From the IMG/VR virus record IMGVR_UViG_3300049432_000156, positions 1 to 64,000 of that record: a stretch of 64,000 nucleotides of DNA, one strand, 5' to 3'. How positions within the stretch are numbered: position 1 is the stretch's first letter; the number at the start of each line of letters is the position of its first letter. The notes beneath the pieces were generated by a model. That model made no database searches and was not told the origin of the DNA. It saw only the letters and a program-made list of their open reading frames with translations. The stretch comes from a virus. The position numbers and the translations under genes were made by a program. Of the stretch, positions 8,629 through 53,690 are shown in pieces.

Positions 8629-9015
8629 ATGAGCAAGCCGAAAGAAAACTCAGACATCACAGTACATTGCGAAACCTGCGGCACCAACTATCTGATTATG
8701 AAACTCGCGGGTCTCAGGGAAAAGATTCCCGACCTGGACCTGAAGACCAATCACTACAAGCACGGTCTCTGCAATGAGTGCGATGAACATCTGAAAGCCG
8801 GGGGCGTGTTCTTTCAGGATCGAGCCGGGCGATGTGTAAAGGTCGGACTTGAAGCAAGCCTGGAAAAAATATCACCGGGCTTTCGTGGCAAAGTCATCTG
8901 CATACCTTCGAAGGCCCTTGACGAACTCATCGCGGCGTGGATGGAGGCCAACCCGAATCCGCCGCCGTCGCCAGAATCCAATTCAGAGTTCGGAGATCAT
9001 CCGCCAAAGACCTAA
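8629..9015 (+). CDS. Hypothetical protein with cysteine motifs
   Basis: A 128 aa protein with CETCGTNY and GLCNECDEHL, a likely four-Cys zinc site. It is preceded by a 78 bp non-coding stretch holding the hairpin, so it may start a new transcription unit. The stop codon lies in the first attC-like palindrome. No family recognised. Confidence 0.65.
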   Translation: MSKPKENSDITVHCETCGTNYLIMKLAGLREKIPDLDLKTNHYKHGLCNECDEHLKAGGVFFQDRAGRCVKVGLEASLEKISPGFRGKVICIPSKALDELIAAWMEANPNPPPSPESNSEFGDHPPKT

Positions 9016-9098
9016 GACCGCGCTGGAGAGAACGCCGGGAAAGCGCTTCAGTCGTCGCCATCCGTTTTCTCCCCGGCGTCTCTCAGCTTGGATTTAGG
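9011..9098 (-). repeat. attC-like imperfect palindrome 1 (minus orientation)
   Basis: The left arm 9011-9039 and right arm 9070-9098 pair over about 26 bases, with one unpaired G and one unpaired A in the left arm, leaving a ~30 nt loop. Shared arm cores are CGCCGGG and GAGAGA next to CCTAA/TTAGG ends. Extra bases on one arm of an otherwise paired stem are the hallmark of integron attC sites. The terminal core is not the consensus GTTRRRY, so this copy is degenerate. Orientation is inferred from which arm carries the extra bases. Confidence 0.55.
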
Positions 9099-9118
9099 TG
9101 GATGAGCAACACGTCGAT

Positions 9119-9379
9119 ATGAAAACAGCAATTGTGATAATCGAGATACCTTACGGCAAAGACGATGCCATGAGGCACTGGCGGCAGCTTGCAGAGTTCT
9201 ACGCCGATAAAACAAAGTCCAAGCCAGGAATTGAAAGGCTTGCCGAAAATGTGTGGTTGATACCTCTTGATAGTGAATTGCCTCTGTTCGGCACTCTTGT
9301 ACACGGAGTGCGAGAGCATCACTTGAAATGCCGCACCCTGTTTCTTGATGAGAGTGCGCAATGGGTTTCATCCACCTAA
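9119..9379 (+). CDS. Cassette ORF of unknown function
   Basis: An 86 aa protein (MKTAIVIIEIPYGKDDAM...) lying exactly between two attC-like palindromes. Composition (beta strands IVIIEIPYG, VWLIPLD; charged helices) is that of a genuine soluble protein, although the ORF runs opposite to the inferred palindrome orientation. GTG 9098 is an alternative start. No family recognised; a minus-strand ORF of 92 aa over the same bases looks less protein-like. Confidence 0.55.
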   Translation: MKTAIVIIEIPYGKDDAMRHWRQLAEFYADKTKSKPGIERLAENVWLIPLDSELPLFGTLVHGVREHHLKCRTLFLDESAQWVSST

Positions 9380-9480
9380 CCAAGCGCTGGAGCCAACGCC
9401 GGGGAGTCACGCGAGTTGAGCCTTGGATTTTCTCTGGTCCAGCGCCAGCGTCCCGGCGTGGCTCAGCTTGGGTCGTTAGT
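9374..9480 (-). repeat. attC-like imperfect palindrome 2 (minus orientation)
   Basis: On the minus strand the site runs from ACTAAC to GTTAGGT, the latter a perfect match to the integron core GTTRRRY. Arms 9374-9404 and 9450-9480 pair as CCTAAC..CAAGC..GCCAACGCCGGG against their complements with single unpaired G and A in one arm. The loop is about 45 nt. It lies directly downstream of RusA in RusA's own orientation, the position of attC in a gene cassette. Confidence 0.65.
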
Positions 9481-9960
9481 TCTTTGTCTTTCATAGGCTT
9501 GCCTTTCCAATTGGGTTAACAGTTCAGAGATCGTAATATGACACCCGCCGGCTGAATTGACAATGGCCCAGTCTTTGGTGACGAGAACACGCGCAAGCTG
9601 GGCGTCATCATTCCATGCGCCGATCTTGGTCAGCGCATTTGCCACTGCCGCAGCCAGGTTGTCGAAGTCGGGTTTCTGTGTGTGATGGCTTGGAGCGGTT
9701 TCCTTGACCTTGCCGTTCGCCCTGAAGTGCGACTTCGGCCGCTTGAAATTGAACCGCAGTTCAAGGGAGATCGGGCCGTCGAACTTCTCAATTCCAGCTT
9801 CTTTGGCGGCTATCGCGATGGCCGACTTCCAACCTTCCGCCGTCGTCGGCGAGTACGCCCTCACCTGAATCTTATCTCCTTGTTTTAACGCGAACGCCCG
9901 CGGCCTGCCTTGCGCCTTTGGAGTTCCAGATACGAAAAAACTGATCGTTCTATTGGACAT
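9463..9960 (-). CDS. RusA-type Holliday junction resolvase
   Basis: A 165 aa endonuclease of the RusA family, which cuts four-way DNA junctions. Features: FFVSGTPKAQGRPRAF near the N-terminus (substrate-binding basic loop) and KPDFDNLAAAVANALTKIGAWNDDAQL with the catalytic Asp residues. ATG 9960 is chosen because homology begins at MSNRTISFFV; the 49 residues upstream look like non-coding leader. The C-terminus (RQRTNDPS) runs into the attC-like palindrome. It is the only confident minus-strand gene in the early region, transcribed divergently from the RHH-RecT pair. Confidence 0.9.
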   Translation of the reverse strand: MSNRTISFFVSGTPKAQGRPRAFALKQGDKIQVRAYSPTTAEGWKSAIAIAAKEAGIEKFDGPISLELRFNFKRPKSHFRANGKVKETAPSHHTQKPDFDNLAAAVANALTKIGAWNDDAQLARVLVTKDWAIVNSAGGCHITISELLTQLERQAYERQRTNDPS

Positions 9961-10079: not shown

Positions 10080-10238
10080 ATGAGCGCAACTCAATCTGAA
10101 CGGACATGCCCGGTCAGAATATCCAGAGAACTCCATCAGCGGGCAAAGGCTTACGCCGCAAAACGCGGTTTGAAGATGCAAGCGCTGGCCGAACAAGCCT
10201 TCAAACTCCTGCTCGATGGCGCGAAGAAACCCCTATGA
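10080..10238 (+). CDS. Ribbon-helix-helix protein
   Basis: A 52 aa Arc-like protein: strand CPVRIS, helix RELHQRAKAYAAKRG and helix KMQALAEQAFKLLLDGAK. Such proteins bind DNA as dimers and usually repress their own promoter; the A/T-rich divergent region just upstream is the obvious target. ATGA-coupled to recT. Confidence 0.65.
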   Translation: MSATQSERTCPVRISRELHQRAKAYAAKRGLKMQALAEQAFKLLLDGAKKPL

Positions 10239-11479
10239 GTGAACCAACAAATCCGTTTGCCGTCGCCGCGAAACCAGCCGGGCCTGAGACGCTTCAGAGC
10301 CTTCTCGCCCAGGACAAATATCGAAAGCGTTTCGAGCAGGTGCTCGCCGACCGTGCGCCACAATTCATCAGCAGCATTCTCTCGCTGGGTGCCACGATGC
10401 CGGACGTTGAACCGCGAAGCATTCTCGCCAGCGCGGCCATCGCGGCATCTTTAGACCTCCCCGTGGATAAAAATCTTGGGTTCGCTTGGATCATTCCCTA
10501 TCGCAAGGGCGACAGGAAGTTCGCATCATTCCAGATGGGGGCGCGCGCCTACGTGCAGCTTGCCCTGCGCACTGCTCAGTACAAACGGATGAACGCGAAA
10601 CCGGTGAACGCCGAGGCGCTGAATGGGTACGACAACATTGGAGAGCCGGTGATTGATTGGAACAAGCTTGACGAAACAAAGGAACCGGTCGGGTATGTCT
10701 TTGCGTTCTCCCTCGTAAACGGTTTCACCAAGACATGCTACTGGTCGAAGTCCAAGGTCGAGGATCATGCCAGGAAATACTCGCAGGCGTATCGCGCAGG
10801 CTATGATTCGCCGTGGAAGACGCATTTTTCGGCTATGGCTTTGAAGACCGTCATCGCCAATGAGCTTCGGCACTGGGGTATTCTATCGGTAGAGATGCAG
10901 ATGGCATTTCGCGAGGACCTCGGAATGCACAAAGACATCGACACTGAAGTTGAATTTCCCGAGCCGGGAGACGAAATCATGCGACCGAAGTTTGATGACA
11001 AAATCGCCGACGCCGCGGACGCGAAGGCAACGGCCGACGAGAAGGCCGAAGCAGCGGCCGGTCTCGCCCCATCTTCACCGCCACCAGAACAACCCAGGCG
11101 CGGGCGAAAGAAAGCGGCAGCACCGGAGCCACCGGTTCAAGCCGCGCCCCAAGCGCCCGCGCCTGCTCCTGCTCCGGTTGCTCAGACGGGGCCAACAACC
11201 GCGACTCAGCCAAGCCCACCGAGCCAGCCAGCAGCCGGAGCCACGCAGCCGTCGTTCTCGGAGCTTTCCTTCCAACCGTACAACCAGTTGCGCGAGTTGA
11301 TGGATCACAGCAAGATCACGGAGCCGGAAATGATTCGCCTGTGCAGACACCGCGGCCTGATGACGGAGCAGCAGCAGGAGCTTCTGCAACTTGCGGACGA
11401 TAAGATCAAAGACCTCTGCGAAAGTTGGCCTGCAGTCGCTGGGCAGGTAAGGATTGATCGGAAGAGTTCGGGGAAATGA
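10235..11479 (+). CDS. RecT-family single-strand annealing protein
   Basis: A 414 aa protein. Residues ~15-245 match RecT/Bet-type annealases: SIL-SLGATMP, the conserved 'SILASAAIAASLDLPVDKNLGFAWIIPY' region and GARAYVQLALRTAQYKRMNA, followed by YWSKSKVEDHARKYS and MALKTVIANELRHWG. A long Pro/Ala-rich linker (about 290-355, with RRGRKKAAA) leads to a ~60 aa helical tail. By family it coats single-stranded DNA and anneals strands with a partner exonuclease, here probably the PD-(D/E)XK gene at 14.5 kb. The linker and tail are longer than in a minimal RecT and may bind SSB or exonuclease. Confidence 0.88.
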   Translation: MSEPTNPFAVAAKPAGPETLQSLLAQDKYRKRFEQVLADRAPQFISSILSLGATMPDVEPRSILASAAIAASLDLPVDKNLGFAWIIPYRKGDRKFASFQMGARAYVQLALRTAQYKRMNAKPVNAEALNGYDNIGEPVIDWNKLDETKEPVGYVFAFSLVNGFTKTCYWSKSKVEDHARKYSQAYRAGYDSPWKTHFSAMALKTVIANELRHWGILSVEMQMAFREDLGMHKDIDTEVEFPEPGDEIMRPKFDDKIADAADAKATADEKAEAAAGLAPSSPPPEQPRRGRKKAAAPEPPVQAAPQAPAPAPAPVAQTGPTTATQPSPPSQPAAGATQPSFSELSFQPYNQLRELMDHSKITEPEMIRLCRHRGLMTEQQQELLQLADDKIKDLCESWPAVAGQVRIDRKSSGK

Positions 11480-11910: not shown

Positions 11911-11972
11911 GCGCCACTGACACCAGCTTTTCAGAAGTCGCCAAACGCGTTCAACTGCGAGGTGGTCTGTGA
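11907..11972 (+). CDS. Micro-ORF coupling two genes
   Basis: ATG 11907 overlaps the stop of the preceding gene and encodes 21 residues (MSATDTSFSEVAKRVQLRGG and one more) ending at TGA 11970-11972, itself overlapped by GTG 11969. Double overlap is the operon's usual spacing, which is the only support; it may be a real peptide or a translational relay. Confidence 0.35.
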   Translation: MSATDTSFSEVAKRVQLRGGL

Positions 11973-12193
11973 TTTCGCCGAACGGCCAAGCAGCGCATGG
12001 TTCGGGAGAAGCCGACCCGCTGGTGTCGGAACTGCGAAGCCTCGCGACGACCGAATACCCGCTCTGCCCGGAAGCGAGACTGCTGCTTGAAATGGCCGTG
12101 GATGCTCAGCTTGGAAAACCCATAGACGTGACTCGGCTGCTCCCCAAGCTCAGCGACGGCAAAACCGAGACTCAACCATGCGAGAAAAAGTAA
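11969..12193 (+). CDS. Hypothetical small protein
   Basis: A 74 aa protein from GTG 11969. Core helices (PLVSELRSLATTEYPLCPEARLLLEMAVDAQL) look genuine. Its start region spans a short GCCGAAC...GTTCGGG inverted pair (11977-12006) and its C-terminus reads through the left arm of the next attC-like palindrome. Confidence 0.5.
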   Translation: MISPNGQAAHGSGEADPLVSELRSLATTEYPLCPEARLLLEMAVDAQLGKPIDVTRLLPKLSDGKTETQPCEKK

Positions 12194-12235
12194 ACCCAGA
12201 GCAGAAGCCGAGTTCGCCGGAGCGCTTGGTTAGGC
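12145..12235 (+). repeat. attC-like imperfect palindrome 3 (degenerate)
   Basis: Right arm 12207-12235 ends GAGCGCTTGGTTAGGC, with GTTAGGC at 12229-12235 fitting the integron core GTTRRRY exactly. The left arm (CCAAGCTCAGCGACGG at about 12144-12159) pairs only partly and lacks the RYYYAAC end, so the copy is decayed. The loop holds ATG 12178 of the next ORF and the stop (12193) of the previous one. Confidence 0.45.
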
Positions 12236-12489
12236 TGATATACTGCACTACACTGCTCCTCCTTGGCGTAGCGTCCATCAGCCATTCGATTGTGATATGG
12301 CGCTGGCAAAACAGGATCGTCACTTTAGAAACAGAAGTATCACTGCTGCGATCGCAGCTATCGACCCGACAATCAGGATCGCTATATCCACGCAGTGAAG
12401 GCGCTCAATTGATCTCTTCAAATCTCCTTGGCCATCTCGCCCCTATTGACTCTATTTTAAGCATGTGGAATCAGGCTGACGTACCATGA
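12178..12489 (+). CDS. Single-pass membrane protein in cassette array
   Basis: A 103 aa protein with a basic N-terminus, a transmembrane segment at about residues 19-41 (LIYCTTLLLLGVASISHSIV), then a short coiled-coil-like stretch (NRIVTLETEVSLLRSQL). This architecture is like small i-spanins or other phage inner-membrane proteins, but nothing specific is recognised. The start lies in the loop of palindrome 3. Confidence 0.55.
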   Translation: MREKVNPEQKPSSPERLVRLIYCTTLLLLGVASISHSIVIWRWQNRIVTLETEVSLLRSQLSTRQSGSLYPRSEGAQLISSNLLGHLAPIDSILSMWNQADVP

Positions 12490-12854
12490 ACCGCGATCCT
12501 TCCTCTTTGCGTGATGCGATATTCAGTCGGGCGCGTCGCTGTCGCTTCGGCATGGCCAGACTGAAGAAGACGCTCCAACAAAAAGTCAGCGCGCTATACC
12601 GATACTCCGACCGTCTGTGCTATCGCTTCTGGAAGTACCCAATCCCGCGCCGTGTCCAACGCCTTTATGACATGGCGTGCCTCTACGGACAATTGCTCCC
12701 CTATTACCTCGCGGTATTGCTGGAGGAGTTCATCATACTTCTGACGGAGGGAATCGAAGTCTTCATTTGGGTTCATAATAGGCGAGTGAACGATTGGCGT
12801 CGCGATAGTCAGCCTAACGACCAAGCTCAGGAGCGGCGGGAAGGAAAACTATGA
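12486..12854 (+). CDS. Possible cassette ORF (plus strand)
   Basis: A 122 aa frame overlapping the preceding stop and ending in the loop of palindrome 4 at 12854. It is rich in Arg, Tyr and Trp, which is suspicious of an antisense frame; a minus-strand ORF at 12594-12776 looks more protein-like. Kept because its ATGA overlaps at both ends match the array's architecture. Confidence 0.35.
   Translation: MNRDPSSLRDAIFSRARRCRFGMARLKKTLQQKVSALYRYSDRLCYRFWKYPIPRRVQRLYDMACLYGQLLPYYLAVLLEEFIILLTEGIEVFIWVHNRRVNDWRRDSQPNDQAQERREGKL
12594..12776 (-). CDS. Alternative cassette ORF (minus strand)
   Basis: A 60 aa frame (MNPNEDFDSLRQKYDELLQQ...) with clear heptad-like helices and ordinary composition, antisense to the + ORF over the same bases. 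GTG starts further upstream are possible. Only one of the two is likely to be made; proteomics or codon statistics would decide. Confidence 0.4.
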   Translation of the reverse strand: MNPNEDFDSLRQKYDELLQQYREVIGEQLSVEARHVIKALDTARDWVLPEAIAQTVGVSV

Positions 12855-12919
12855 ACGAGCAAGAGACTCAAGGCACAACCTCAACCGGCTCCCCGCCGTC
12901 GCCCAGCGCAGTGTTCGGC
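12812..12919 (+). repeat. attC-like imperfect palindrome 4
   Basis: Begins with GCCTAAC (12812-12818, perfect RYYYAAC) and ends with GTTCGGC (12913-12919). The arms GCGGCGGG and CCCCGCCGTCGC pair in between, and ~45 nt form the loop. ATG 12851 and TGA 12852-12854 sit in the loop. Confidence 0.6.
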
Positions 12920-12955
12920 GGCGGACGTTGCTGGCGAAACTTTTTGGCAGCATAA
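12851..12955 (+). CDS. Micro-ORF within attC-like site
   Basis: A 34 aa frame from ATG 12851 in the loop of palindrome 4, crossing its right arm and ending at TAA 12953-12955. Much of it is translated palindrome, so it may be only a relay for ribosomes. Low support. Confidence 0.25.
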   Translation: MNEQETQGTTSTGSPPSPSAVFGGGRCWRNFLAA

Positions 12956-13039
12956 CCGACCCGCGATACGCGGTACTAGTGCGCGTGAATCCGAGGCGGC
13001 GACTCGATCCGTGATGAGAGACGAAAGGGTTATGCTGCC
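12946..13039. repeat. 12 bp terminal inverted repeat element
   Basis: GGCAGCATAACC at 12946-12957 and GGTTATGCTGCC at 13028-13039 are exact reverse complements enclosing 70 bp with no ORF. The GCATAAC/GTTATGC ends resemble attC termini, but the inner arms do not pair. Could be a miniature transposable element or a collapsed cassette site. Confidence 0.55.
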
Positions 13040-13066
13040 GTTTGAATCTGTGGACAAGAACGAGCC

Positions 13067-13148
13067 GCCGAACGACCAAGCAAACCTGAAACCTTATGGC
13101 AAATAAACAAAACGCAAAAGCCGGGTTCGCTGGAGCGCCTGGTTCTGC
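13067..13148 (+). repeat. attC-like imperfect palindrome 5
   Basis: GCCGAAC (13067-13073) pairs with GTTCTGC (13142-13148) with one mismatch; between them GACCAAGC and GGAGCGCCTGG are the L-box equivalents. ATG 13096 of the next ORF lies in the loop. Arms are more diverged than in sites 6-8. Confidence 0.5.
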
Positions 13149-13353
13149 GGCGTGCCCCGACTTCTGGTTTCGATACGAGAGGGTGGACGGCGAGGAAGTG
13201 ATAAACACATCGCGCAATCTGCTCTATGAACAGGTGATGGAAATCATGGCTGGGATTGATCGCGTGAAAGCGACGATCACCGCTGGTGACAAATGGCACT
13301 GCCCGAACTGCGACAAGCCGCATAACGACAAAGCTCAGCGACCGGCCAACTGA
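13096..13353 (+). CDS. Cassette ORF, hypothetical
   Basis: An 85 aa protein running from the loop of palindrome 5 to the loop of palindrome 6. Real folded core is probably ACPDFWFRYERVDGEEVINT...AGIDRVKATI followed by a CPNCDKPH zinc knuckle. The last residues (NDKAQRPAN) are translated palindrome. No family recognised. Confidence 0.6.
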   Translation: MANKQNAKAGFAGAPGSAACPDFWFRYERVDGEEVINTSRNLLYEQVMEIMAGIDRVKATITAGDKWHCPNCDKPHNDKAQRPAN

Positions 13354-13423
13354 TATGAGCCAACCCGCGAGCAACGGCACGACTGAAACGACAATCCCGG
13401 TTGGCTCCAGTGAGTTGTTAGAG
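13320..13423 (+). repeat. attC-like imperfect palindrome 6
   Basis: GCATAAC (13320-13326) to GTTAGAG (13417-13423). The left arm AACGACAAAGCTCAGCGACCGG pairs with CCCGGTTGGCTCCAGTGAGTTGTTAG using single unpaired bases on the right arm. The loop (~45 nt) contains TGA 13351-13353 of the upstream ORF and ATG 13355 of the next. Confidence 0.65.
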
Positions 13424-13609
13424 GCGCTTCGGCGATGGCGCTACTTTGAAAAGAGACACGCAGCAGTGGTGCTTGGTGAAATCGACATCGACGCACAGCA
13501 GGCGAAAGAAGTATCTGACCGTGCGTTGCATCAACTGCGGATTGTGGCGGATAGGGCAATCACGCAAGCCTCTAACGACAAGCTCACCGACCGCCCACCG
13601 CGACAATGA
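13355..13609 (+). CDS. Cassette ORF, helical hypothetical
   Basis: An 84 aa protein from ATG 13355 in the loop of palindrome 6. Helical core ELLEALRRWRYFEKRHAAVV and IDAQQAKEVSDRALHQLRIV looks genuine; the last ~12 residues (SNDKLTDRPPRQ) are translated palindrome 7. Its TGA overlaps ATG 13606. Confidence 0.6.
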   Translation: MSQPASNGTTETTIPVGSSELLEALRRWRYFEKRHAAVVLGEIDIDAQQAKEVSDRALHQLRIVADRAITQASNDKLTDRPPRQ

Positions 13610-13672
13610 AAAACACTGACTCCAAGTCCAACCCGAAAGCGAATGGCGGTTCGGTGCAGCGCATGGTTGGGC
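13570..13672 (+). repeat. attC-like imperfect palindrome 7
   Basis: The clearest copy. CTCTAAC (13570-13576) to GTTGGGC (13666-13672, perfect GTTRRRY). GACAAGCTCACCGACCGCC pairs with GGCGGTTCGGTGCAGCGCATG over ~17 bases, leaving single G and A extrahelical in the right arm, as in integron attC sites. The loop holds the ATGA (13606-13609) joining two ORFs. Confidence 0.75.
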
Positions 13673-13821
13673 TGCGACGGTGCTCTTGCGGTCTCCGTCC
13701 AAAACTCACGCGATGGGAGGGCGGCGTAGAAATCGAATGCAGACTTGGCATGGACGAAGGATGCGGAGACTACATTAATGAAGCGACTGAGGCTCAAGCC
13801 CGAGCCGCATGGAACCAGTAA
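13606..13821 (+). CDS. Lar-like small zinc protein
   Basis: A 71 aa protein. After ~24 residues translated from the palindrome comes LRRCSCGLRPKLTRWEGGVEIEC and a final EAQARAAWNQ; the CxCG...C...AxAAWN pattern is that of the Lar/restriction-alleviation small zinc-finger family, which in lambda-like phages modulates host type I restriction. The second cysteine pair is incomplete, so the call is tentative. The stop sits just before palindrome 8. Confidence 0.55.
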   Translation: MKNTDSKSNPKANGGSVQRMVGLRRCSCGLRPKLTRWEGGVEIECRLGMDEGCGDYINEATEAQARAAWNQ

Positions 13822-13825
13822 GTGA

Positions 13826-13912
13826 GCCCAACGACAAAGCTCAGCGACCGGGACGCTGAGTAAAGTATTAACCCCGCGGCGAATCCCGGTTCGCTGCAGC
13901 GATTGGTTAGGT
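13826..13912 (+). repeat. attC-like imperfect palindrome 8
   Basis: GCCCAAC (13826-13832, perfect RYYYAAC) to GTTAGGT (13906-13912, perfect GTTRRRY). AACGACAAAGCTCAGCGACCGG pairs with CCGGTTCGCTGCAGCGATTGG with one extra G and one extra A on the right arm. 87 bp in all. Unlike the others it lies wholly between ORFs, as in a textbook cassette. Confidence 0.75.
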
Positions 13913-13932
13913 AAAAGTAACCCAAAACCACA

Positions 13933-14148
13933 ATGAAAAAAACGACCATAACTCAGGCCCAAGAGGACGCCGTATATGCAATCGGCACCAAATCTCGCGT
14001 CAACCTGCACGAAATCCACCCGCGCGTTGCTCGTGCTTTGATAAAAAAAAGACTGATCGAAAAACAATGGAACTCGAACGATGCAAGCGGAGAAAAGCTG
14101 AAGCTGACGGACAATGGCAGATCGGCGTTCAAACAGCTTTTTACCTAA
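13933..14148 (+). CDS. Winged-helix-like small protein
   Basis: A 71 aa protein (MKKTTITQAQEDAVYAIGTK...KLTDNGRSAFKQLFT). The pattern helix - 'HPRVARALIKKRLIEKQ' - beta wing 'KLKLTDNGRSAFK' is that of a MarR-like winged helix, where 'LTDNGR' is the wing. Probably DNA-binding. Last ORF in the cassette region; ACCTAAC and GTTAAAT flank its 3' side at 14143-14185 but without pairing arms. Confidence 0.6.
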   Translation: MKKTTITQAQEDAVYAIGTKSRVNLHEIHPRVARALIKKRLIEKQWNSNDASGEKLKLTDNGRSAFKQLFT

Positions 14149-14183
14149 CAGTACTTTAGACGACTCTTGAAAGGTAACGTTAA

Positions 14184-14477
14184 ATGACTCGCAAGCACTC
14201 AGCCAACGCACTGGCGGCAAAACAACGCAATCGGTTGGCCTCACCACCACCTGATTACTTCGACGCGCCGGATTACTCCAAGCCCGTGCGCGAGATCGTT
14301 TACCGCGACCTGCTGAGCGGCGAGACGCACATATTCCTGTTGTTCATCCATCCGCGCCGGGTCGATCAATTTGTTTGCCTCATCGACGGCAAGCCGTGGC
14401 TGGCCCAAGCCGGTTGGAGCCGCGTTTTAGCTGGACTCCGCAAGGCTGTGCCACGCTTCTCACAACGACCTCAATGA
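14184..14477 (+). CDS. Hypothetical protein
   Basis: A 97 aa protein with a central strand-rich stretch (REIVYRDLLSGETHIFLLFIHPRRVDQFVCLIDGKPW). No family recognised. ATGA overlap with the next gene supports expression in the same unit. Confidence 0.55.
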   Translation: MTRKHSANALAAKQRNRLASPPPDYFDAPDYSKPVREIVYRDLLSGETHIFLLFIHPRRVDQFVCLIDGKPWLAQAGWSRVLAGLRKAVPRFSQRPQ

Positions 14478-14731
14478 ACGACGCTCTGTTCAGACCGTCC
14501 TCGATGCTCCGCCGGTCAAAGTGTCCGGGGAGCTTGGCGCTTGAATCCACGTTGCCGGAGAGCGTGGATGACGAGAGCGACGAATACCGAGCAGAAGGTC
14601 GCCTGCTACACGCGCTCATTGCAGACCCGTCTCTGCCGAGAGATGAACTAAAGCCGAGCCAGATGGATTTAATCGAAACCATCGAGAAGGAGGAACGGAA
14701 TTTTCTCGAATCTAATCTATTCACCGTCTGA
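14474..14731 (+). CDS. N-terminal part of split DUF2800-like exonuclease
   Basis: An 85 aa protein beginning LFRPSSMLRRSKCPGSLALESTLPES..DEYRAEGRLLHALI, which matches the N-terminal 'S-x-x-x-R-W-x-x-C-P-G-S' and 'E-G-x-x-x-H' region of DUF2800/Cas4-like PD-(D/E)XK nucleases. Cys17 would be the first ligand of an iron-sulfur cluster whose other three cysteines are in the next ORF. It stops at TGATG, overlapping the next start. Confidence 0.65.
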   Translation: MNDALFRPSSMLRRSKCPGSLALESTLPESVDDESDEYRAEGRLLHALIADPSLPRDELKPSQMDLIETIEKEERNFLESNLFTV

Positions 14732-15618
14732 TGAAAGATTACATCGAACTGGTGGAGGAAGCGTTCTCATTCAGTTGGGATGGCAAGGTGTTGTTCACCG
14801 GGCATCCAGACAGTGTGCTTGTGTTCCGCCTTGGTAATCCAGTCATCGTGCGTGAACGGAAGATGGGGTTCAAAGTGGTCCAAGCTGCTGACGCAAACCT
14901 ACAGCTTCGTGCGTATATCGCGATGGTATCCGAAAAATATCAAGCGAGCGATTACTACGGCCAGCTCACCCAGCCGAGAGTTTCATCGAAGTCACACATT
15001 GTTTATTATACGCGAGAGGATGTCGCCAAAGCCCGCCTTGAAATAAAGGCTTTATGGGACGCAAGCCACGCGCCAGATGCGCCGCGCCGGGCATCGCACG
15101 ACGCCTGCAACTTCTGCCGGGCGCAGACCGTGTGCCCCGAATTTCAGTCTTGGCTCGGTGCCATCGAGAAATCAAAGCACCTGCCGGTCGCTCAATGGAC
15201 GGACGGCCAGATGAGTCTGTTTGAGGAACGGCGTGGAATGTTGGAGAAATTCCTCAAGGAGACCCACAAGCAGATCTTCGCGATTAAACAGGCTGACCCG
15301 GAGAGATTGCCGGGGTGGAGTATAAAGCCCGGAGCTAACGTCCGAAGAGTCAACGACCTTGTCGCCGCCTGGTCGGCATTGCAGAGTTTGCTGTCCGACG
15401 GTTTTGGCAACGAAGCCGCGAAGCAATTCAGCAATTGCTGTGACATCTCAATCGGGGCATTGGAAGATTTGATTTACAACATGCTCAAGGATGCGGCAAA
15501 AAAAAAGAGCCAGAAAGAAGTCAAACGACTGGTCAACGATGCCCTGTCCGGGCTAATTGAACTGCGACAGAACAAGCCATCATTGGTCAAAGATGAGCGA
15601 ACAGCACCAAACCGTTAA
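14731..15618 (+). CDS. PD-(D/E)XK exonuclease, catalytic part
   Basis: A 295 aa protein continuing the DUF2800/Cas4-like nuclease. GHPD (Asp27) and VRERKMG (Glu42, Lys44) form the PD-(D/E)XK active site; CNFCRAQTVC (Cys126, 129, 135) matches the C-terminal cysteine trio of Cas4/AddB-type 4Fe-4S nucleases. Expected role: resecting dsDNA ends to provide single strands for RecT. It follows the N-terminal ORF by a TGATG overlap, so the enzyme would have to form from two chains or by frameshift. Confidence 0.75.
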   Translation: MKDYIELVEEAFSFSWDGKVLFTGHPDSVLVFRLGNPVIVRERKMGFKVVQAADANLQLRAYIAMVSEKYQASDYYGQLTQPRVSSKSHIVYYTREDVAKARLEIKALWDASHAPDAPRRASHDACNFCRAQTVCPEFQSWLGAIEKSKHLPVAQWTDGQMSLFEERRGMLEKFLKETHKQIFAIKQADPERLPGWSIKPGANVRRVNDLVAAWSALQSLLSDGFGNEAAKQFSNCCDISIGALEDLIYNMLKDAAKKKSQKEVKRLVNDALSGLIELRQNKPSLVKDERTAPNR

Positions 15619-15775: not shown

Positions 15776-16126
15776 ATGAGCTTGGTTAAAAAGCTAGATG
15801 CCATCCCGCCCTGCCTCGTGCGTTTGATCGCCAGAGACCCACGGCATCCAGGCCGCCGGCTGCCGCTCTTGGCCATTGCCGAACGCGCCGGCTTGTCCTA
15901 TGGAGCCACGAGGCGCCTGTCGCTGAAACGCTCGTGGGGCAATGTCACACCAAGGATCATTGATTCCTTCTGTAGCGCGTGCGGCGTCGACATTCTGCAT
16001 CCGAAAAGCTCCGTTGATTATCTCAAAAGAACTCTGAGGAAACCAAACGGCTACAAACTGCTGGCCAACAAATCCGGTTCTGGATCGGCCGAGTCGGTGC
16101 TAAGATTATTGCAGACACTCCAATGA
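15776..16126 (+). CDS. HTH DNA-binding protein upstream of the recombinase
   Basis: A 116 aa protein whose middle LLAIAERAGLSYGATRRLSLKRSWGNVTPRIIDSFCSACGVDI reads as a helix-turn-helix with recognition helix YGATRRLS. ATGA-coupled to the integrase, as excisionases and integrase regulators often are, but no excisionase family is recognised. Confidence 0.6.
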   Translation: MSLVKKLDAIPPCLVRLIARDPRHPGRRLPLLAIAERAGLSYGATRRLSLKRSWGNVTPRIIDSFCSACGVDILHPKSSVDYLKRTLRKPNGYKLLANKSGSGSAESVLRLLQTLQ

Positions 16127-17103
16127 ATGACGAAAACAAAGCCCTGGAACAGAACCCCGTCCTCAAGCCGACGGTTGCCATATGGGTCGAGGAGTACAAG
16201 GCGCAGAATTTTCCAAGATTCGCGCAGAACACTCGAACCTTAGTGAACACTGAACTTGTCCGGTTTGCGCTATTCCTTGGACGCCGAGCAATCTCCGGGA
16301 ACATCCTGCACGAGTACATGGCCGAACAACGTCGCAGGGTTGCAGGCGAATCGCTGATCAGGGCGATGCGATGGACTGGCGCATTCCTGAAGTGGGCCGA
16401 GGAAATGGGCTACCTGGACAGGCGCTACTCGTCGCTGTCGATCTTCAAATGCAGTGCGGTCCTGGTCATTCACAAACCGCCGCAGCGCTTCACGCCCGAA
16501 CAGTACGAAGCGATGAAGGAAGCGACCAAGGGCACCGGATGGCACTATGCCACGATCATGGCGTATCGCACCGGCGCACGGTTGAGCGATGCGTGTCTGC
16601 TGAAATGGGAGAGCGTAAACCTGGAAGAGCTTTACATTCATTACCTGCCGTGGAAAACCAGGAAGTCGCAGCGGTATGCGACCTGCCCCTTTCAGGCTGG
16701 TGGGGATTTCCACAATGTACTCATTGAGCTAAACGCATCACGGGACAAGCGCCCGCACTGGGACCAGTTCGTCTGCCCGGAACTCGCGATGAGATACGCG
16801 ACGCAATCAGACGTGTTCCAGAGCTATGAGCTGAGTCGTCAGTTCGGAGGCTACTGCAAAAAAATCGGCGCTGCGCACCTGAGCTTCCATAAACTGCGTA
16901 ACACGTTCATGGCGAAATGCGTTGACGGCTCAATCCCGTTCGCACAGGCGCGTCAGATTACGGGGCTTGGTAGCGACAGCGTGTTCATGCGATATGCGAA
17001 ACCGAATCTGGATGTTCTCAGAGTCGCAATCGACAAAATTGATTCGCAAGACTTGCCTAAAGGAACGTCGATTATTCAGTTGCCGCAAAATTCGGCAGCT
17101 TGA
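16123..17103 (+). CDS. Tyrosine recombinase/integrase
   Basis: A 326 aa site-specific recombinase. N-terminal core-binding domain (~30-110, VAIWVEEYKAQNF...YMAEQRRRVAGE) and C-terminal catalytic domain: Arg153 in TGARLSDACLLKW, Lys in WKTRKSQ, His256-x-x-Arg259 in SFHKLRNTF, and Tyr291 in FMRYAKPN. The usual LGH before the tyrosine is GLGSDS, so the third histidine is replaced. It lacks the extra helix of integron integrases between patches II and III, so it is XerC/phage-like, not IntI. It may integrate the phage; no attP-like repeat was identified nearby. Confidence 0.85.
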   Translation: MNDENKALEQNPVLKPTVAIWVEEYKAQNFPRFAQNTRTLVNTELVRFALFLGRRAISGNILHEYMAEQRRRVAGESLIRAMRWTGAFLKWAEEMGYLDRRYSSLSIFKCSAVLVIHKPPQRFTPEQYEAMKEATKGTGWHYATIMAYRTGARLSDACLLKWESVNLEELYIHYLPWKTRKSQRYATCPFQAGGDFHNVLIELNASRDKRPHWDQFVCPELAMRYATQSDVFQSYELSRQFGGYCKKIGAAHLSFHKLRNTFMAKCVDGSIPFAQARQITGLGSDSVFMRYAKPNLDVLRVAIDKIDSQDLPKGTSIIQLPQNSAA

Positions 17104-21899: not shown

Positions 21900-22201
21900 A
21901 ACCACTCGCAACAACAAAAACCGCCGCCACTGTAATGTGCCGTCCGCAATTCAGGATCGACTGCGTTGGCGAGGAAGGCCCTCATTCTGATATGGAGAAA
22001 TATGGATGGGTGCCAAGTGGGGATGACATGCTTTATCTCACAGTGAAAACCTGTGTGAATACATGGCATTGCATGGTGCCAAGAGCCGCTATGAACGCCG
22101 TGTTCGAGGCGATCAACAAAAACGGTGTCACGATTGAATTTTGCGGTTCAGATAGCCGTCAATCTCCCATGCCGCTAGACCGCCAGCCTCCGCAGCCGTG
22201 A
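21896..22201 (+). CDS. Hypothetical protein
   Basis: A 101 aa protein, last of the + strand cluster, overlapping the 3' end of the giant gene by 27 bp on the opposite strand (convergent). Several cysteines, no known motif. The last ~25 residues lie in the overlap. Confidence 0.5.
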   Translation: MKPLATTKTAATVMCRPQFRIDCVGEEGPHSDMEKYGWVPSGDDMLYLTVKTCVNTWHCMVPRAAMNAVFEAINKNGVTIEFCGSDSRQSPMPLDRQPPQP

Positions 22202-25200
22202 CTGTCTCGGCCTTCTTGACGCGCCCCTGAGCAAGCTACGAGTTCTCAGCCCACGCCGCAGTGACCTTGATCTGAACCCGGAGCGCACGCCGCGCGGAGA
22301 GCCAAGAGAGAGTCGGCTGCGCGAACCGCCGAATCCTCCGATGTCGGAAAAAGCGCCTGAGCTTTCGGATGGCACCGCGCCGAAGCCGCGTCCGCCGCCG
22401 AAGCTCCGGGCTGTAGCGCCGCCTCCACCCGTGCCGTAACGGCTGGCAATCTGGTTGAAGACAGCGTTGGCCTCATTCTGCCGTCCGAGCGCTTCAGGAG
22501 TCATACGTGAGTAAATCATTTCGCGTTCGCCGTCCGTCAGCACACGGGAGAACACGGCGGACTCTGGTGCCCGCGTCCGGATAGCGGAGATGATTGCCTG
22601 CTCAGGGTTCGGATTGCCCGACGCACGACTCTGCTCAACGGCTTTGGCAAAGGCTTCGTCCGCCGTGGACCAATCTCCGACTGCCGCCGCATTCAGAATC
22701 GTGTTGTAGAGCGGAGTCATGGGCGTGACGCGCAGATCATTGCCTGACGAAGGCTGCCTTCTCTTGGCTTCCAAACTCTCCGGCGTATTGGCGCGAAGCT
22801 CATTGGCGGCGTTGCGCATCTTGACCAAACCCTCGCGTGATGGCGCCCGGTTGATGAGCGCCCGCGCCACGGGCGAGTAACGCGCCAGGAAATCCACGGC
22901 TGGCCCGGCATCACGGCTCTGGTAAATCTTAGCCATTGTTTGAAGGAGGTCCGTGACGTAGTTCGCGCCGAAGATCGGATTGCGCAGACCGAGTTTACCT
23001 GGTGTATCCTTGAACCCTTTGAAGATGCTGCCCGCCGCACCCCAGAAGTTCGCCGCAACAGAGAGCAGAATCTTCCAGCGATCATCGTCATTGTCCGCGT
23101 CCAGGAAATCCGGTTGCGATGAGATCGTGTTGAACAACGCGTCATTCGCACGCTGCCCGGGAATCCTCGCAACCAACCCGGCTATGCCCGATGCGATCAG
23201 GAAGCCGAACACAAACGGCAGATAACGCACGTCACTGCCTTTCTGGCCGCGGACCTTGGCGAACAATTCCTGCAACTTGTCCGTGTTCCAAAGAAACCAT
23301 TGGCCGAGCACACCGCCAATCTGCCGTTCTTTGCTGCCCATGAAATACGTCGGCCTGCTCGTCGGCGTGCCCATGTTCGTGTCTTCGGCCATTTTGAACT
23401 GCAACGCATACCGCTGCGCCGGGGTCATAATCGGCGCTGTGCGGTTCCCGTTGGGATGCGTCTTGTTCCACCAATACTTCAGCATGATCAGGTCAACCGG
23501 ATCGTTGTTTTCCAGGAACATGTTGCGAAGCTGGACAGCGGCTTTGCGCATCGTCAGTCCGACGATGATTGGGTCTTTGCCCGTCAATTCGGCAGGTGAC
23601 AGGAGTTCACCCTTGCCATCCGGCCCGATCAAAACACCGGAGAACCGTTTGTAGTTGTCGCCGTATTCCCGATAGAGCCTTGCGAACTCCGGATCGTTCT
23701 CAAGCCGGCTGTCGAATGCGCGCATCGCCCGGACTTCCAAAGACCTTCCAAGGCTTTGCTCCTTGGCGATGGATTTGACATTGATCCAGTTATCGACGGA
23801 GCGCATGAAGCCATGCCGCAGTAAGACTTGTCCGGCGCGCGGGATCATCCCGATGTAACCGAACGCTTCCTTGCTCCCGCTCAGACTTGGGTCGGCGTGA
23901 ATGTCACGGAACGCGGCCATTGCCGCTTTGAAGTTTTCCGCCAGCGTCCATTCCGCATTGGTGCCCATCGCTTCCCGGTAAGAGAACCGGTCGATCATGC
24001 CCATCCTGGCCTGTTGCTCTCGGTCGGCAGCTTCCTGAGCCATGCCGGATACGATCTCCGTTGCCGCTTCTCTCAGGTCGCGATTGTCCAACAGCCGTTT
24101 GACGGCGTTGGTCTTCATTGCACGCAGAGCTTTAGCGCCCGGGCGAAGACTGACAGGTTCGCCTTTCCACTTCAGATACGGCACTTTCAATTCCGCCAGA
24201 GCAGCAGTTTTTATGGCCGTGCGCACCCAATCTTTTACGAGATGGCCTGTCACCCACAACCAGCCGCCTTTGCGGATCTCCGCCGTCTTCAATGCCCACA
24301 TGAACTCGCCTGAAACGCCGTTCGTGATCAAAGTCATCGGTGCCAGGAGCACGTTGCTGACGGCGAAATTCCACCACGGCATGAACATCCGTGACGCGAT
24401 GTCATCACCGAAGAATCCCTCGCCGCGTTTTGCGATGTCGGTGACGTTGTTTAACAACCTGCCAATGCGGGCGATGTCCCGGTTCACCTCCCAGATCGCC
24501 ATCTGATGTTTCTGCACGGACTCGTTTCCGGAGACGATGGCTGCGTTCAGCTTGCGCCGGGCCTGCCAGCCGGTGCCACCGTAAGCGTCCTTCAACGTCT
24601 TGGACAACGCGGTCTTCTCCGCGAGTAACGCAGTGTTCAACGACCGCAGGCTGTCGCGGTACTTGATGACGTAGAATTCTAGGGCATTGGCGCCTTTGCG
24701 GAAGGCATCAACCGGGTCGGTTGTTCCGTACCGGTACAACGTGCCAGGAGCAATCTTTCCGCCGCGCGGCTGGGTGAATTCGTTCTCATGCACGGTGATG
24801 TCCACATTGGCCGCGGTCGCTTTCCTTGCGTTATCATCCGAGACCTTCAGCATGAACTCGTTCACTTCATCAATCAGCTTTCGTCGGACTTCGCCAGCAG
24901 TTGCCGGTGGCAGTGGCGGGTCAGAGCCTGCGATTCGCTGGTTATACCGATCTGCAATGAACTGCGCTAACTCATCCAGGCTGGCCGGCATCCGGCCCTC
25001 TCTGAACAAAATCTCGCGTTCGTTCCGTATCCGTTTGTAATCCTCAGCGAATTTGCCTTGGCCAAGCTGGAAATAAGGGCGCTCGTCTTCAAGGACGTGC
25101 CCGAGCACGACGCGTTTGTACCGGTCCCCGGCGCTGAGGAATTGGTCGATCTGATTATTCTCCCGGGCGCTCTTCCACAACGCCGGCAGTTCACGGCTGC

Positions 25201-28200
25201 TCGGTGGCAGAAATCGCGGTATCGTTCCCGGCCCGCGCGACAATGGCGCCCTGAACATCCTGAGTTCATGCTCCTTGATCATGGCCGGGTCCTCGGCCAG
25301 GGCGGATTCAAACCCGGCGCGCTGCGCCAGGCGGACAAGGTGTTGCTCGAATTCGTACTGCGTCCGGATCGCCGCCATGTCTTCTTTGGTGATGACGTGT
25401 CCGAATGGTGTGTGCTCGCCGACGTTGTATAACGTCTGTCCAGTGTGCTGCCGAGAATCGTGGATGAACGAAGCCACTTCATCGCGCCAACGGTCCAGCG
25501 TCATCCCCGGATGCGACCGCATCGCCTTCAGGTTTGTGCCCCGAATGATTTCATCGAACTTCTTCTGCAACGCATTGTTGGTCTTGAGCGCAAGCGAATA
25601 AGCGTTGCCTGCCCTTATCATCTTTAGATTGAGAGCGCCGGGTATCCTTGAAGCCGTCGTTGCCGAGATCAATCCGTACTTTGATTTGGTAACGAAATTG
25701 AACCACTTGATCGGGTTGAACCAAGACGGATCAGTCAGCCGATCGTTGTCCGCGTGCGATGCCAAGATTTGAGCATCGATGTATTCCGCGAAGTGCATCC
25801 AACCAGCGGCTTTGATTGGATCGGCATCCGGTCGCGCCGCGTATTCAAGCCCGGCATCCTTCAGCGCGTTCAGTTTCAGGAGCAATTCAACCTGCCCACC
25901 AAACCGGTAATCCACTTCAACGTCAGCGCCGGTCAACGGATGCTCGTATGTGACAACGACACCGTCCACCGTGTTCTTGATGTCCTTGATTGCGCCGGTT
26001 GCACGCTGCATTTGCTTTCCGAAAGCCACGAATTCTGGGTTGGCATCATGTTCGTTTAGGAACTGCGCGGCTGCTTCCAGATTCGCCTTCTTTTCAGTCA
26101 ACGTCTCGATGCGCCGGTCGAGCCGCCGCGCAGCGGCACTGAGCGCATCGGATTCGACTTGAGCCTTGGCATACTCCTTGAGAATCGCATTGAAACCGCG
26201 CGGCGTCCTCGAACGAAGATCGTTCAGGTAATCCGCGTTGAACCGCCGCAACGTTCCGTCGGCCGTCATCTGGACTTCGAGCAATGCCTGCCGCCAATCG
26301 CCAATCTGACGAAGACCCCAGAGCGTTGCCTCGATGACATCGCGCCCAGCGTTGATGGCCTTGTTGCCTTCCGGTGTTTGGATTTGGTCAAGATGCGTTG
26401 CCAATTGGCGGACCCAGGCGCGCACCGTGAGCGGTGGCGATAACCCAGGCGAACCAGTTTGAGTCGCGATAAGCTCAAGAACGTTTTCGCCAGGCCGTTC
26501 AGCCGTCAAAGCAGCGCGCCCGACCAGCCGGGTTATTCCACTCAACGCCCGTGCGTGCGCCACGGGTTGACTGAGCAAATCATTGAGTTCAGCGATGTGT
26601 TCGATGCCTTCGCCGATGACTGCGTTGGTGTGCGCTTTCTCTCCGACAGCGATTTGTTCGGTATGGATTTTGTCGATGATTTCTCCAAGCCGATTGGTCC
26701 GTTCCACCTGCGCTTCGTTGGTTTCCGGTGTGGCCGTGATGCGGTCGGTAATCGCCTGGGCATGATCAACGGCAGCCGCCTCCACTTTACTCAGGATTTT
26801 CAGCTTCTCCGCCTGGTACAGGTTCCATTCAACAAAGGCATTGTGTGCGTGCTCAGCTTTCTTTTCCGGCGTGATGTTCGGGTCAGCCATGACCTGGGCG
26901 AACGTTGGGCCGGTCTCGCGGTGCGTCCCAATCCTGCCGCCGAACATGTCTTCAAGCTCACCGCGGATGCCGGCGGGCAAAGCTGTGTAGCGCGGAATCA
27001 CCGACGACGGCACCAACCCCTTGTTGATGACCGACGCCATTGCGCGGAAGTATTCCGGTGTCCGGGTTTCCTCCAACGGTTTGACGTACTCCTCGACGGC
27101 CTGGCGGGATTCCAGGGCGGCTTGGGTGCCCCTGCTGCGGCTTATGCTGGGAGGTTCCGCGCGGGCCTGCCCGGCAAGGATGTCCCCGATTGGGCCAGCA
27201 GCGCGATCTGCCGGTCCAGTTCTTCCAAGGCCGGCACGTCCTTGTTCCGGAATGCCGACAACTCCCGGCGCATTGACTCCAAGTGGACCTTCACCAGGCC
27301 GTGCAGCTTCACCGGGTCGTTCGGGGCCAACGGCTGAAGAAGATTGAAAACTCTCGGCACGATTCCTTGTATTGTAATTTTGGAGTCGGTCATTGATTTC
27401 ATTGAATGCCTCCCAGTTTGTAGTAAAAATCTTGTCCAATGTCCCCTCAAAAATCTCGACGGGTATGTCCGCCGAGCGGAGTCTGGCATAGTTGTTCGCG
27501 AGTTCAGCGGTAAAATCGGCTCCTTCTGTCCTGGCGGCAACGTGGGTTATTTCGTGAATGAAGATGTGCAGAGCTTCCGATGCCGCCGCTGCCGGGCTGC
27601 TCCTACCCGCGTTGGAGAACAATCCGAGGTTGAACCATATCGCCCGCATCGGCTTTACCATGTTCAAGCCGCGATAATTCTTGTCGAAAGAGATTCCGCC
27701 GAACCATCCGGTGATCGAAGCGTCGGTGAGTTGTTCGTACTCGCCTCCAACTTTCTTGCCCCATTCGCGCATGAAGTTCAGAAGGACATTGCCGGTCTCG
27801 GTGATCAGTGTCCCGGCGCGCGGAATGTCGTCAAACTCCACGGCGACGTTGTTGTGAAGATTCGGCACAGACGGGTCCATGTCGCTCACGTCGATTTCCG
27901 TTTTCTTCAGGTCAATCTCGCGCTTTGCCTCGAAAGTCTTTCTGACGTACTCCTGCTTGCTCTCGGTGATCGCGGTTCCGTCCCTGTAGTGAATGACGAC
28001 ATCCGGGCCTCGAAAATCCACGGACTCAATTTCCTTCGGCTTTCTGATCGGAGGCGGCGGTTCGGACTTCTTTCGGAAATAACGCCGCTCCATGTCGGCC
28101 ATCTCTTCCGGCGTCCAATCTTTCATCGGATCAACCTTCTCCAATTGCCGAATGCTGGTGAACGCTTCCTTGGCCTGAAGCAGTTCCTGCTCAACCGCCA

Positions 28201-53624: not shown

Positions 53625-53690
53625 GCGTTGGTCTTTCAGGTTTCAACGTTTTGTTAGCGGCGGATGCCGGAGTCGCGTCCAGCATCCGCC
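53625..53690 (-). promoter_or_regulatory. Hairpin plus conserved leader of GIY-YIG gene
   Basis: On the minus strand, GGCGGATGC and GCATCCGCC (53690-53682 and 53667-53659) form a perfect 9 bp stem, followed by CCGCTAACAAAACGTTGAAA and a CCTGAAAGACCAACGC segment, then ATG 53624. AACGTTGAAA...GACCAACGC is shared with the HNH leader at 37.9 kb. On the plus strand the same stem contains the terminase ATG (53664-53666). Confidence 0.65.

Follow-up and report, generated by a model that had tools for sequence, protein, structure and literature searches.

The stretch of DNA considered here (the window) comprises bases 1–64,000 of a 77,365-base virus record, IMG/VR record IMGVR_UViG_3300049432_000156, labelled G000, and carries, between the genes for a RecT-like single-stranded DNA (ssDNA) annealing protein (10106–11479, +; phrog_148, E 5e-46) and a PD-(D/E)XK exonuclease (14476–15618, +; phrog_69, E 1e-22; PF12705, E 1e-8), a series of imperfect palindromes of the attC type, the sites that define integron cassettes, with small open reading frames (ORFs) between them. 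The exonuclease region is annotated as two ORFs, 14375–14731 and 14731–15618. Since a terminase large subunit (53664–55247), a virion structural protein and a tyrosine integrase are encoded in the window along with the annealing protein and the exonuclease, the DNA is a tailed-phage genome or most of one.

Two detectors trained without the window recovered the six palindromes that a first-pass annotation, made from the letters and their ORFs, had pointed out at 12.1–13.9 kb. By a two-arm weight matrix derived from viral contigs other than this one, the six score 28.6–69.4 bits, against 20.8 bits for the best of 30 dinucleotide-modelled 64-kb shuffles, and a covariance model of our own (R1), built from 28 bacterial elements only, finds all of them with E values of 3.2e-16 to 1.7e-4, so that models of the attC type, the kind of check that the annotation had proposed, score them far above background. 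In order, these are E1 (12135–12235, +; R1 E 3.1e-5, 43 bits by the viral matrix), whose left R-box has decayed; E2 (12812–12919, +; E 8.4e-6), whose loop holds the start codon (12851) of a short ORF; E3 (13067–13148, +; E 1.7e-4), with the ATG of ORF 13096–13353 in its loop; E4 (13320–13423, +; E 6.4e-8), in whose loop TGATATG joins the stop of the upstream ORF to the start of the next; E5 (13570–13672, +; E 1.1e-13), with the ATG of ORF 13606–13821 in its loop; and E6 (13826–13912, +; 64 bits, E 3.2e-16), the best preserved. R1 also finds two minus-strand elements (9010–9099 and 9374–9481) and E0, a collapsed attC of which 30 nt remain at the array's left end (11977–12006, +; E 0.0017), all absent from the earlier list; the next match outside the arrays, at E 0.13, is noise. 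The right R-box of E0, GTTCGGGAG, matches the CTCCC at the decayed left end of E1.

The ends of the palindromes had been said to fit RYYYAAC and GTTRRRY, and these boxes (R'' and R', respectively) are indeed present or near-present in all six, with single R-boxes degenerate in E2, E3 and E4. The arms pair imperfectly, and the unpaired bases lie on one arm only, as had been proposed (in E6, an extra T and C on the right arm; the bacterial elements A1 are alike). Because that arm is the right-hand one, a point on which the earlier description of the hallmark needs amending, the top strand of a classical attC corresponds to the minus strand here, and the clear plus-strand ORFs run against attC polarity. 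At the right end of the array (14105–14149, −), a further R-box that had been missed, ACCTAAC at 14143–14149, pairs over 11 bp with the right end of E6; on the minus strand, it is preceded by GTCGTCTAAAGTACT, which by inspection resembles the attI side of bacterial integrons, and an attI-like remnant may thus lie at about 14105–14149 (−), although this resemblance is suggestive only. Pairing between ends within the window reaches 8–11 bp, for example between GTTCGGCGGC and GCCGCCGAAC and, where the array ends on the right, between GTTAGGTAAAA and TTTTACCTAAC.

Matches to a 19-base arm pattern were found in 46 stretches of bacterial genomes, mostly metagenome-assembled genomes (MAGs) of Verrucomicrobiota and Planctomycetota and some Proteobacteria, a few of these stretches being chance matches inside unrelated genes. 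An integron integrase above the curated TIGR02249 cut-off is encoded in 23 of the 37 carrier genomes, compared with 0 of 14 controls. Where intI and the elements share a contig, the array lies on one side of intI in constant orientation, as in L145, with nine elements up to 7034 and intI from 7680, and the same layout, the array followed by intI at the attI side in the same relative orientation, holds for four of four phage integrons and for all eight bacterial integrons that are readable. Therefore, on account of this layout and the co-occurrence with IntI, the elements are the attC sites of real integrons. In line with this, full pairing of positions 4–7 of the right R-box with the left R-box of the following element is seen for 32 of 58 neighbours, and with the other end of the same element for 6 of 58 (about 5% at random); such pairing would follow from each unit having once been closed into a circle at an attC. 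In one of the bacterial integrons (L153:10900–13794, −), two cassettes have equal ORF lengths and identical codon scores, apparently one gene present twice, as a recent cassette duplication would leave it.

Among viral contigs, the exact 22-base arm gave no match, and degenerate arm patterns were used instead, which matched IMG/VR contigs in 12 and 20 stretches and gave a total of 29 other viral loci. Four of these viral records encode an IntI-family integrase, scoring 313 bits in G005 and 274.5 in G006, above the TIGR02249 cut-off of 265, and 254.8 in G017 and 231.4 in G008, just below it. In all four, intI lies at the attI side and has the same reading direction as the cassette ORFs. Between G006 and G017, the integrases share 56% identity. 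When 25 integrases were placed in a tree, the four from phages did not come out as one clade: three group weakly among bacterial ones and that of G008 forms a long branch. Neither these IntI genes nor the inverted polarity described below had been seen in the first-pass annotation. G005 (L113, 3377–14309) has at least 11 attC-type elements besides the 313-bit IntI, and the record also gives portal and major-head matches. For G017, a first apparent terminase match was dropped, as the protein matches a helicase far better. In G006 (L054, 108–6585), IntI stands beside an array with a C5 DNA methylase, an N6/N4 methylase and a Mom-like DNA modification protein, and to judge by these matches, the locus is a putative integron with DNA-modification cargo. 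A cassette at L108:14724–14981 matches Lar weakly, with an E of 0.0012 that falls short of the curated cut-off. Judged by sequence, then, the sites in the window are assigned to the attC class of Verrucomicrobiota-type integrons and of the four intI-bearing phage records.

Integrons have been described as bacterial and archaeal platforms in which the polarity of attC points the cassettes away from intI, under one promoter. Coding strands were called unit by unit with a score for codon usage, for which long viral (or bacterial) ORFs were the training set. With elements defined by the covariance model, 41 units of 12 phage records read in the reversed direction, from left arm to right arm, and none in the classical one, 23 giving no call, whereas in five IntI-bearing bacterial arrays, 11 units are classical and none reversed, with 10 giving no call; for 41:0 versus 0:11, Fisher's test gives p = 1.7e-11, the units not being independent. 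An earlier tally over more loci stood at 40:3 for phages and 1:18 for bacteria. Three loci, L059, L069 and L075, were classical or mixed in the first scan; L059 and L069 are part of the 40:3 tally, none of the three is part of the 41:0 one, and they may be bacterial contigs. The 45-kb viral record L075 holds eight elements with ORFs of classical, bacterial-type polarity, perhaps because a bacterial contig or the flank of a prophage was wrongly filed among the viruses. Genes of recognizable family agree with the codon calls, the DNA methyltransferases and the Mom-like protein of phages lying on the reversed strand, and the GNAT, FKBP, SMI1 and glyoxalase genes of bacteria on the classical one. 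An ATG stands in the element loop in 74 of 87 phage cases versus 20 of 85 bacterial ones, and the ORF stops within the next element in 34 of the 41 phage units. The phage units thus depart from classical polarity, in which the ORF runs along its attC; that polarity is a usual, though not a strictly defining, feature of cassettes.

In the main array of the window, the ORF with the clearest strand lies at 13096–13353 (+): it encodes 85 aa with a CPNC motif, runs from a start in the E3 loop to a stop in the E4 loop, and has a codon score of 16.5, the opposite strand scoring −7.2. The first and last units, which were outside the unit test, also hold plus-strand ORFs with good codon scores, namely 11969–12193 (74 aa, ending within E1; 14.9) and 13933–14148 (71 aa, ending at the terminal R-box; 13.7), the product of the latter looking winged-helix-like by eye, with a Pfam match that is not significant. 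The cysteine-rich ORF 13606–13821 (+, 71 aa), which starts in the E5 loop and stops just before E6, scores 3.5 versus −7.2, its strand being undecided; it had been proposed to encode a Lar-like zinc protein, a proposal that found no backing in Pfam, where its product has no match up to E 0.5. The E1–E2 unit is more complex. Its plus strand offers a possible ORF of 103 aa starting in the E1 loop (12178–12489; codon score negative) and another of 122 aa that ends in E2 with the tail NDQAQ (12486–12854; 11.3 versus 8.7 on the minus strand, which does not decide the strand). On its minus strand, 12594–12824 gives the visual impression of a possible remnant of a classically oriented cassette gene; by eye, the frame runs past one stop to a winged-helix-like C-terminus, up to 12471, and the whole (12471–12824, −) is possibly a decaying classical cassette gene.

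The second array consists of two elements and one unit, is oriented opposite to the main array, and lies between a RusA-like gene and the gene at 8629–9015. One of its elements (9374–9481, −; R1 E 1e-13) overlaps the 3' end of the RusA-like gene, which lies on the minus strand and was recognized as such by inspection, and the other is found at 9010–9099 (−; E 6.6e-10). The unit between them holds an ORF of 93 aa (9098–9379, +), for which a codon score of 8.9 versus 6.1 on the other strand is not decisive; if real, this ORF has classical polarity.

The closest relative in our comparison, the 74-kb G032, is collinear with the window and has a terminase that is 69% identical. R1 finds no element anywhere in G032, nor in nine RecT-bearing phages. 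From the RecT stop to the exonuclease start, G032 has 349 bp versus about 3.0 kb in the window; at the site of the second array, the flanking genes overlap in G032, and the window is about 450 bp longer. Homologs of the exonuclease gene are present in G032, G012, L071 and L074, and in the last three, different arrays lie directly upstream of it; L076 also carries a different array. In addition, L071 has a counterpart of the gene at 14184–14477 with 82% amino-acid identity. Since G032 is without arrays and comparable phages hold other arrays at the same site, the main array is accessory and changes by units, which is what the first-pass annotation had suggested looking for, although the compared phages are too distant to show a single event.

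Taken together, the model scores, the pairing of R-boxes and the co-occurrence with IntI support the earlier proposal of a cassette array carried by a phage. With six plus two elements and no nearby intI, the locus agrees with the definition of a cluster of attC sites lacking an integron integrase, or CALIN (at least two attC sites), and we consider it likely on these sequence grounds that the array between the RecT-like and exonuclease genes is a phage-borne integron cassette array without an integrase of its own in the record. An intI in the same replicon, as a complete integron would have, is found in G005, G006, G008 and G017 and not in this record. Beyond this, we propose tentatively, at somewhat less than even confidence, that such arrays are integrons adapted to phages, served by their own or an in-trans IntI, with ORFs inverted relative to attC, hairpins that form start/stop junctions, and hairpins and cores that are exchanged separately at the R-boxes.

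According to published work, the integrase recombines attC solely as its folded bottom strand (PMC11023631); in the window, cassettes would be gained and lost by IntI-type recombination on that strand, here the plus strand. The integrase would come in trans from the host or from some other phage, or would once have been a gene of the phage itself. Selection in the phage would then have kept those cassettes whose ORFs point along the early phage operon. With polarity reversed, the recombining strand would have the sequence of the phage mRNA, and a hairpin could hold the start of one ORF together with the end of the previous one, many ORFs starting in one attC loop and stopping in the next. Translating one ORF would open the hairpin that holds the start of the next, a form of translational coupling. 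The likely use, as far as gene content indicates, would be the exchange of small early proteins, anti-restriction functions among them.

Several observations weigh against this reading. No TIGR02249 (IntI family) match occurs in the 77,365-base record, which is possibly incomplete; a tyrosine recombinase at 16123–17103, considered as a diverged IntI, was rejected, as it is without a TIGR02249 match and has a homolog in the array-free relative G032. Of the 41 phage units, only 17 have a best-scoring ORF whose start codon falls within the upstream element. In the window, one of the five units tested (13096–13353) is decisively on the plus strand, the other tested units being undecided, and one unit in each array may hold a classically oriented ORF; reversed polarity in the window is accordingly likely but not uniform, and the reversed rule is a statement about the phage set. 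Folding, which the first-pass annotation had named as a check, gave a divided answer. As ssDNA, 13823–13914 (E6) folds better than shuffles (z about −3.2), as does 9372–9482 (z about −2.6 to −2.9), E5 is marginal (−1.9, on one strand), and E1–E4, that is, four of the six, are no better than shuffles, with z near 0. Because only E6 and 9372–9482 clearly out-fold the shuffles, several elements are probably worn, and E1–E4 are recognized through sequence, covariance-model score and position, without support from stability.

The remaining difficulty is that, from one phage to another, palindromes assort independently of gene cores, a pattern that the simple movement of cassettes would not lead one to expect. 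Among the 90 longest inter-phage array matches listed, 73 cover one element on both sides and reach at most about 35 nt into the core, and most of the remaining ones are gene cores or flanking genes. For example, E5 and an element of L076 share 93% identity along 100 nt but are flanked on both sides by unrelated genes; the palindrome of E2 is 78–80% identical in L071 and L076, a piece of E3 87–88% in L076 and L077, the palindrome of E4 84% in L076, and E6 90% in L049. Conversely, one gene core is common to L054, L056 and L067. Between L054 and L056, identity begins at the R-box, being 73% after it and at background before it; this pair offers the only clean R-box junction, since at the junctions of L067 and L113, where cores are shared too, the upstream element is degenerate or was missed by the matrix scan. 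Fast change of the leader could explain the missing similarity beside shared cores, but not unrelated genes beside near-identical palindromes. The assortment could stem from an integrase acting at both R-boxes, from homologous recombination through the arms, or from homogenization of the elements.

Such assortment is also what would be seen if the palindromes were homology linkers, with annealing of the RecT/exonuclease type swapping cores through the conserved arms and an integrase having no present part. The combination of near-identical palindromes with unrelated cores and of shared cores with unrelated palindromes fits this idea, as do the location of the array between ssDNA-annealing and exonuclease genes, the comparable synteny in G012, L071 and L074, the annealing/exonuclease genes near the array of G008, and the absence of IntI from this record. 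However, R-box pairing is specific to the unit and, at 8–11 bp in places, exceeds what shared arms would give; the elements have retained their R-boxes and one-arm extra bases, intI is still found at the attI side in four comparable phage records, and near-identical attC sites beside unrelated genes also occur in Vibrio-type chromosomal integrons, all of which makes homology linkers rather unlikely. We think it unlikely, too, that the elements are mainly RNA devices, in which hairpins of the mRNA with a start codon in the loop couple the translation of small ORFs and the likeness to attC reflects ancestry only. That attC sites influence the translation of downstream cassettes is known (reviewed in PMC8876359), and the excess of loop ATGs over bacterial elements and the frequent stops in the next element would suit such a role; on the other hand, the frame relative to the R-box is by inspection not fixed, hairpin stability is often no better than that of shuffles, and the unit-specific R-box pairing and the phage intI are left unexplained.

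An ordinary bacterial cassette array picked up by chance and inert, with plus-strand ORFs that are meaningless, would explain why the attC class is that of bacterial integrons and why one unit possibly holds a broken classical gene, but it is contradicted by the coding strand, opposite in 41 of 41 called phage units, and sits badly with the methyltransferase and Mom-like genes on the reversed strand of comparable arrays and with the occurrence of such arrays in many independent viral contigs; we regard it as very improbable. Scarcely credible is a dispersed palindrome unrelated to integrons, of the repetitive extragenic palindromic (REP) or miniature inverted-repeat transposable element (MITE) type. 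The elements do recur with unrelated flanks and do match a repeat family of bacteria, as the first-pass annotation had allowed for, but that family belongs to integrons, with arrays beside intI and IntI above the cut-off in 23 of 37 carriers, and the R-box consensus, the one-arm extra bases and the pairing of cassette ends speak against such a palindrome.

The reading of the arrays as phage-adapted integrons can be set against known systems. With the sedentary chromosomal integrons of Verrucomicrobiota-type and other bacteria (for example, L145, L149, L153 and L155), the phage arrays share attC arms, R-boxes and position relative to intI; unlike in the phages, the bacterial ORFs run away from intI (11 of 11 called units) and the loops rarely hold an ATG. 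The VCR repeats of the Vibrio superintegron are closely related attC copies beside unrelated genes, similar within one genome, whereas the near-identical palindromes here lie in different phage genomes. In Spirochaetota, intI is generally in reverse orientation (PMC9668308), so that intI and the cassette ORFs share one reading direction, a trait found in the phage integrons too; in contrast to that arrangement, in which the integrase is what is reversed, the phages have a classical relation of intI to attC, and the ORFs are reversed. CALINs of phages are already known, and the reversed polarity is the unexpected part. According to the sections of Qi et al. 2023 drawn on here, 10,705 phage genomes contained 17 CALINs, three complete integrons and one In0, five of six phage attC sites tested recombined with attI1, and two phage arrays are called typical in direction (PMC9892861). 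The phages described there resemble ours in having attC arrays, in some cases IntI, and a cargo of small unknown genes and DNA methyltransferases. The attC class differs from that of their phage TJE1, on which the best R1 match has E 0.54; R1 thus covers only the class found here and cannot judge the polarity of published phage CALINs. Reversed ORFs, loop start codons and independent assortment are not reported in those sections of PMC9892861; the wider search covered open-licence PubMed Central papers only, and reversed phage cassettes may be described elsewhere.

Regarding the record as a whole, scans of the window gave no Rfam match and no tRNA. The array has no blastn match among 50,697 isolated-phage records, hence no cultured relative was found. 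When 388 genomes from the phylum to which the Verrucomicrobiae MAG G035 belongs were searched for the host by means of a conserved structural protein, nothing was returned, there being no positive control for this search. Elsewhere in the window, 22175–33184 (−) is one ORF, encoding a protein of 3669 aa whose middle part gives a short RIIA-like match (E 6e-8); its homolog in G032 has 2585 aa and is 48% identical over 1694 aa.

Overall, the findings suggest that phages have taken over the gene-cassette system of bacteria and fitted it to operons of their own. In these phages, the relation of intI to attC is classical while the genes point the other way, and the rule of cassette direction is therefore not absolute. 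Reversed phage arrays would offer ready-made swapping of small early genes, and anti-restriction functions are plausible among these, considering the DNA methyltransferases, the Mom-like protein and the weakly Lar-like protein encoded in comparable arrays. Finally, near-identical attC sites beside unrelated genes bear on how an attC becomes attached to a gene, a question for which these arrays are natural test material.

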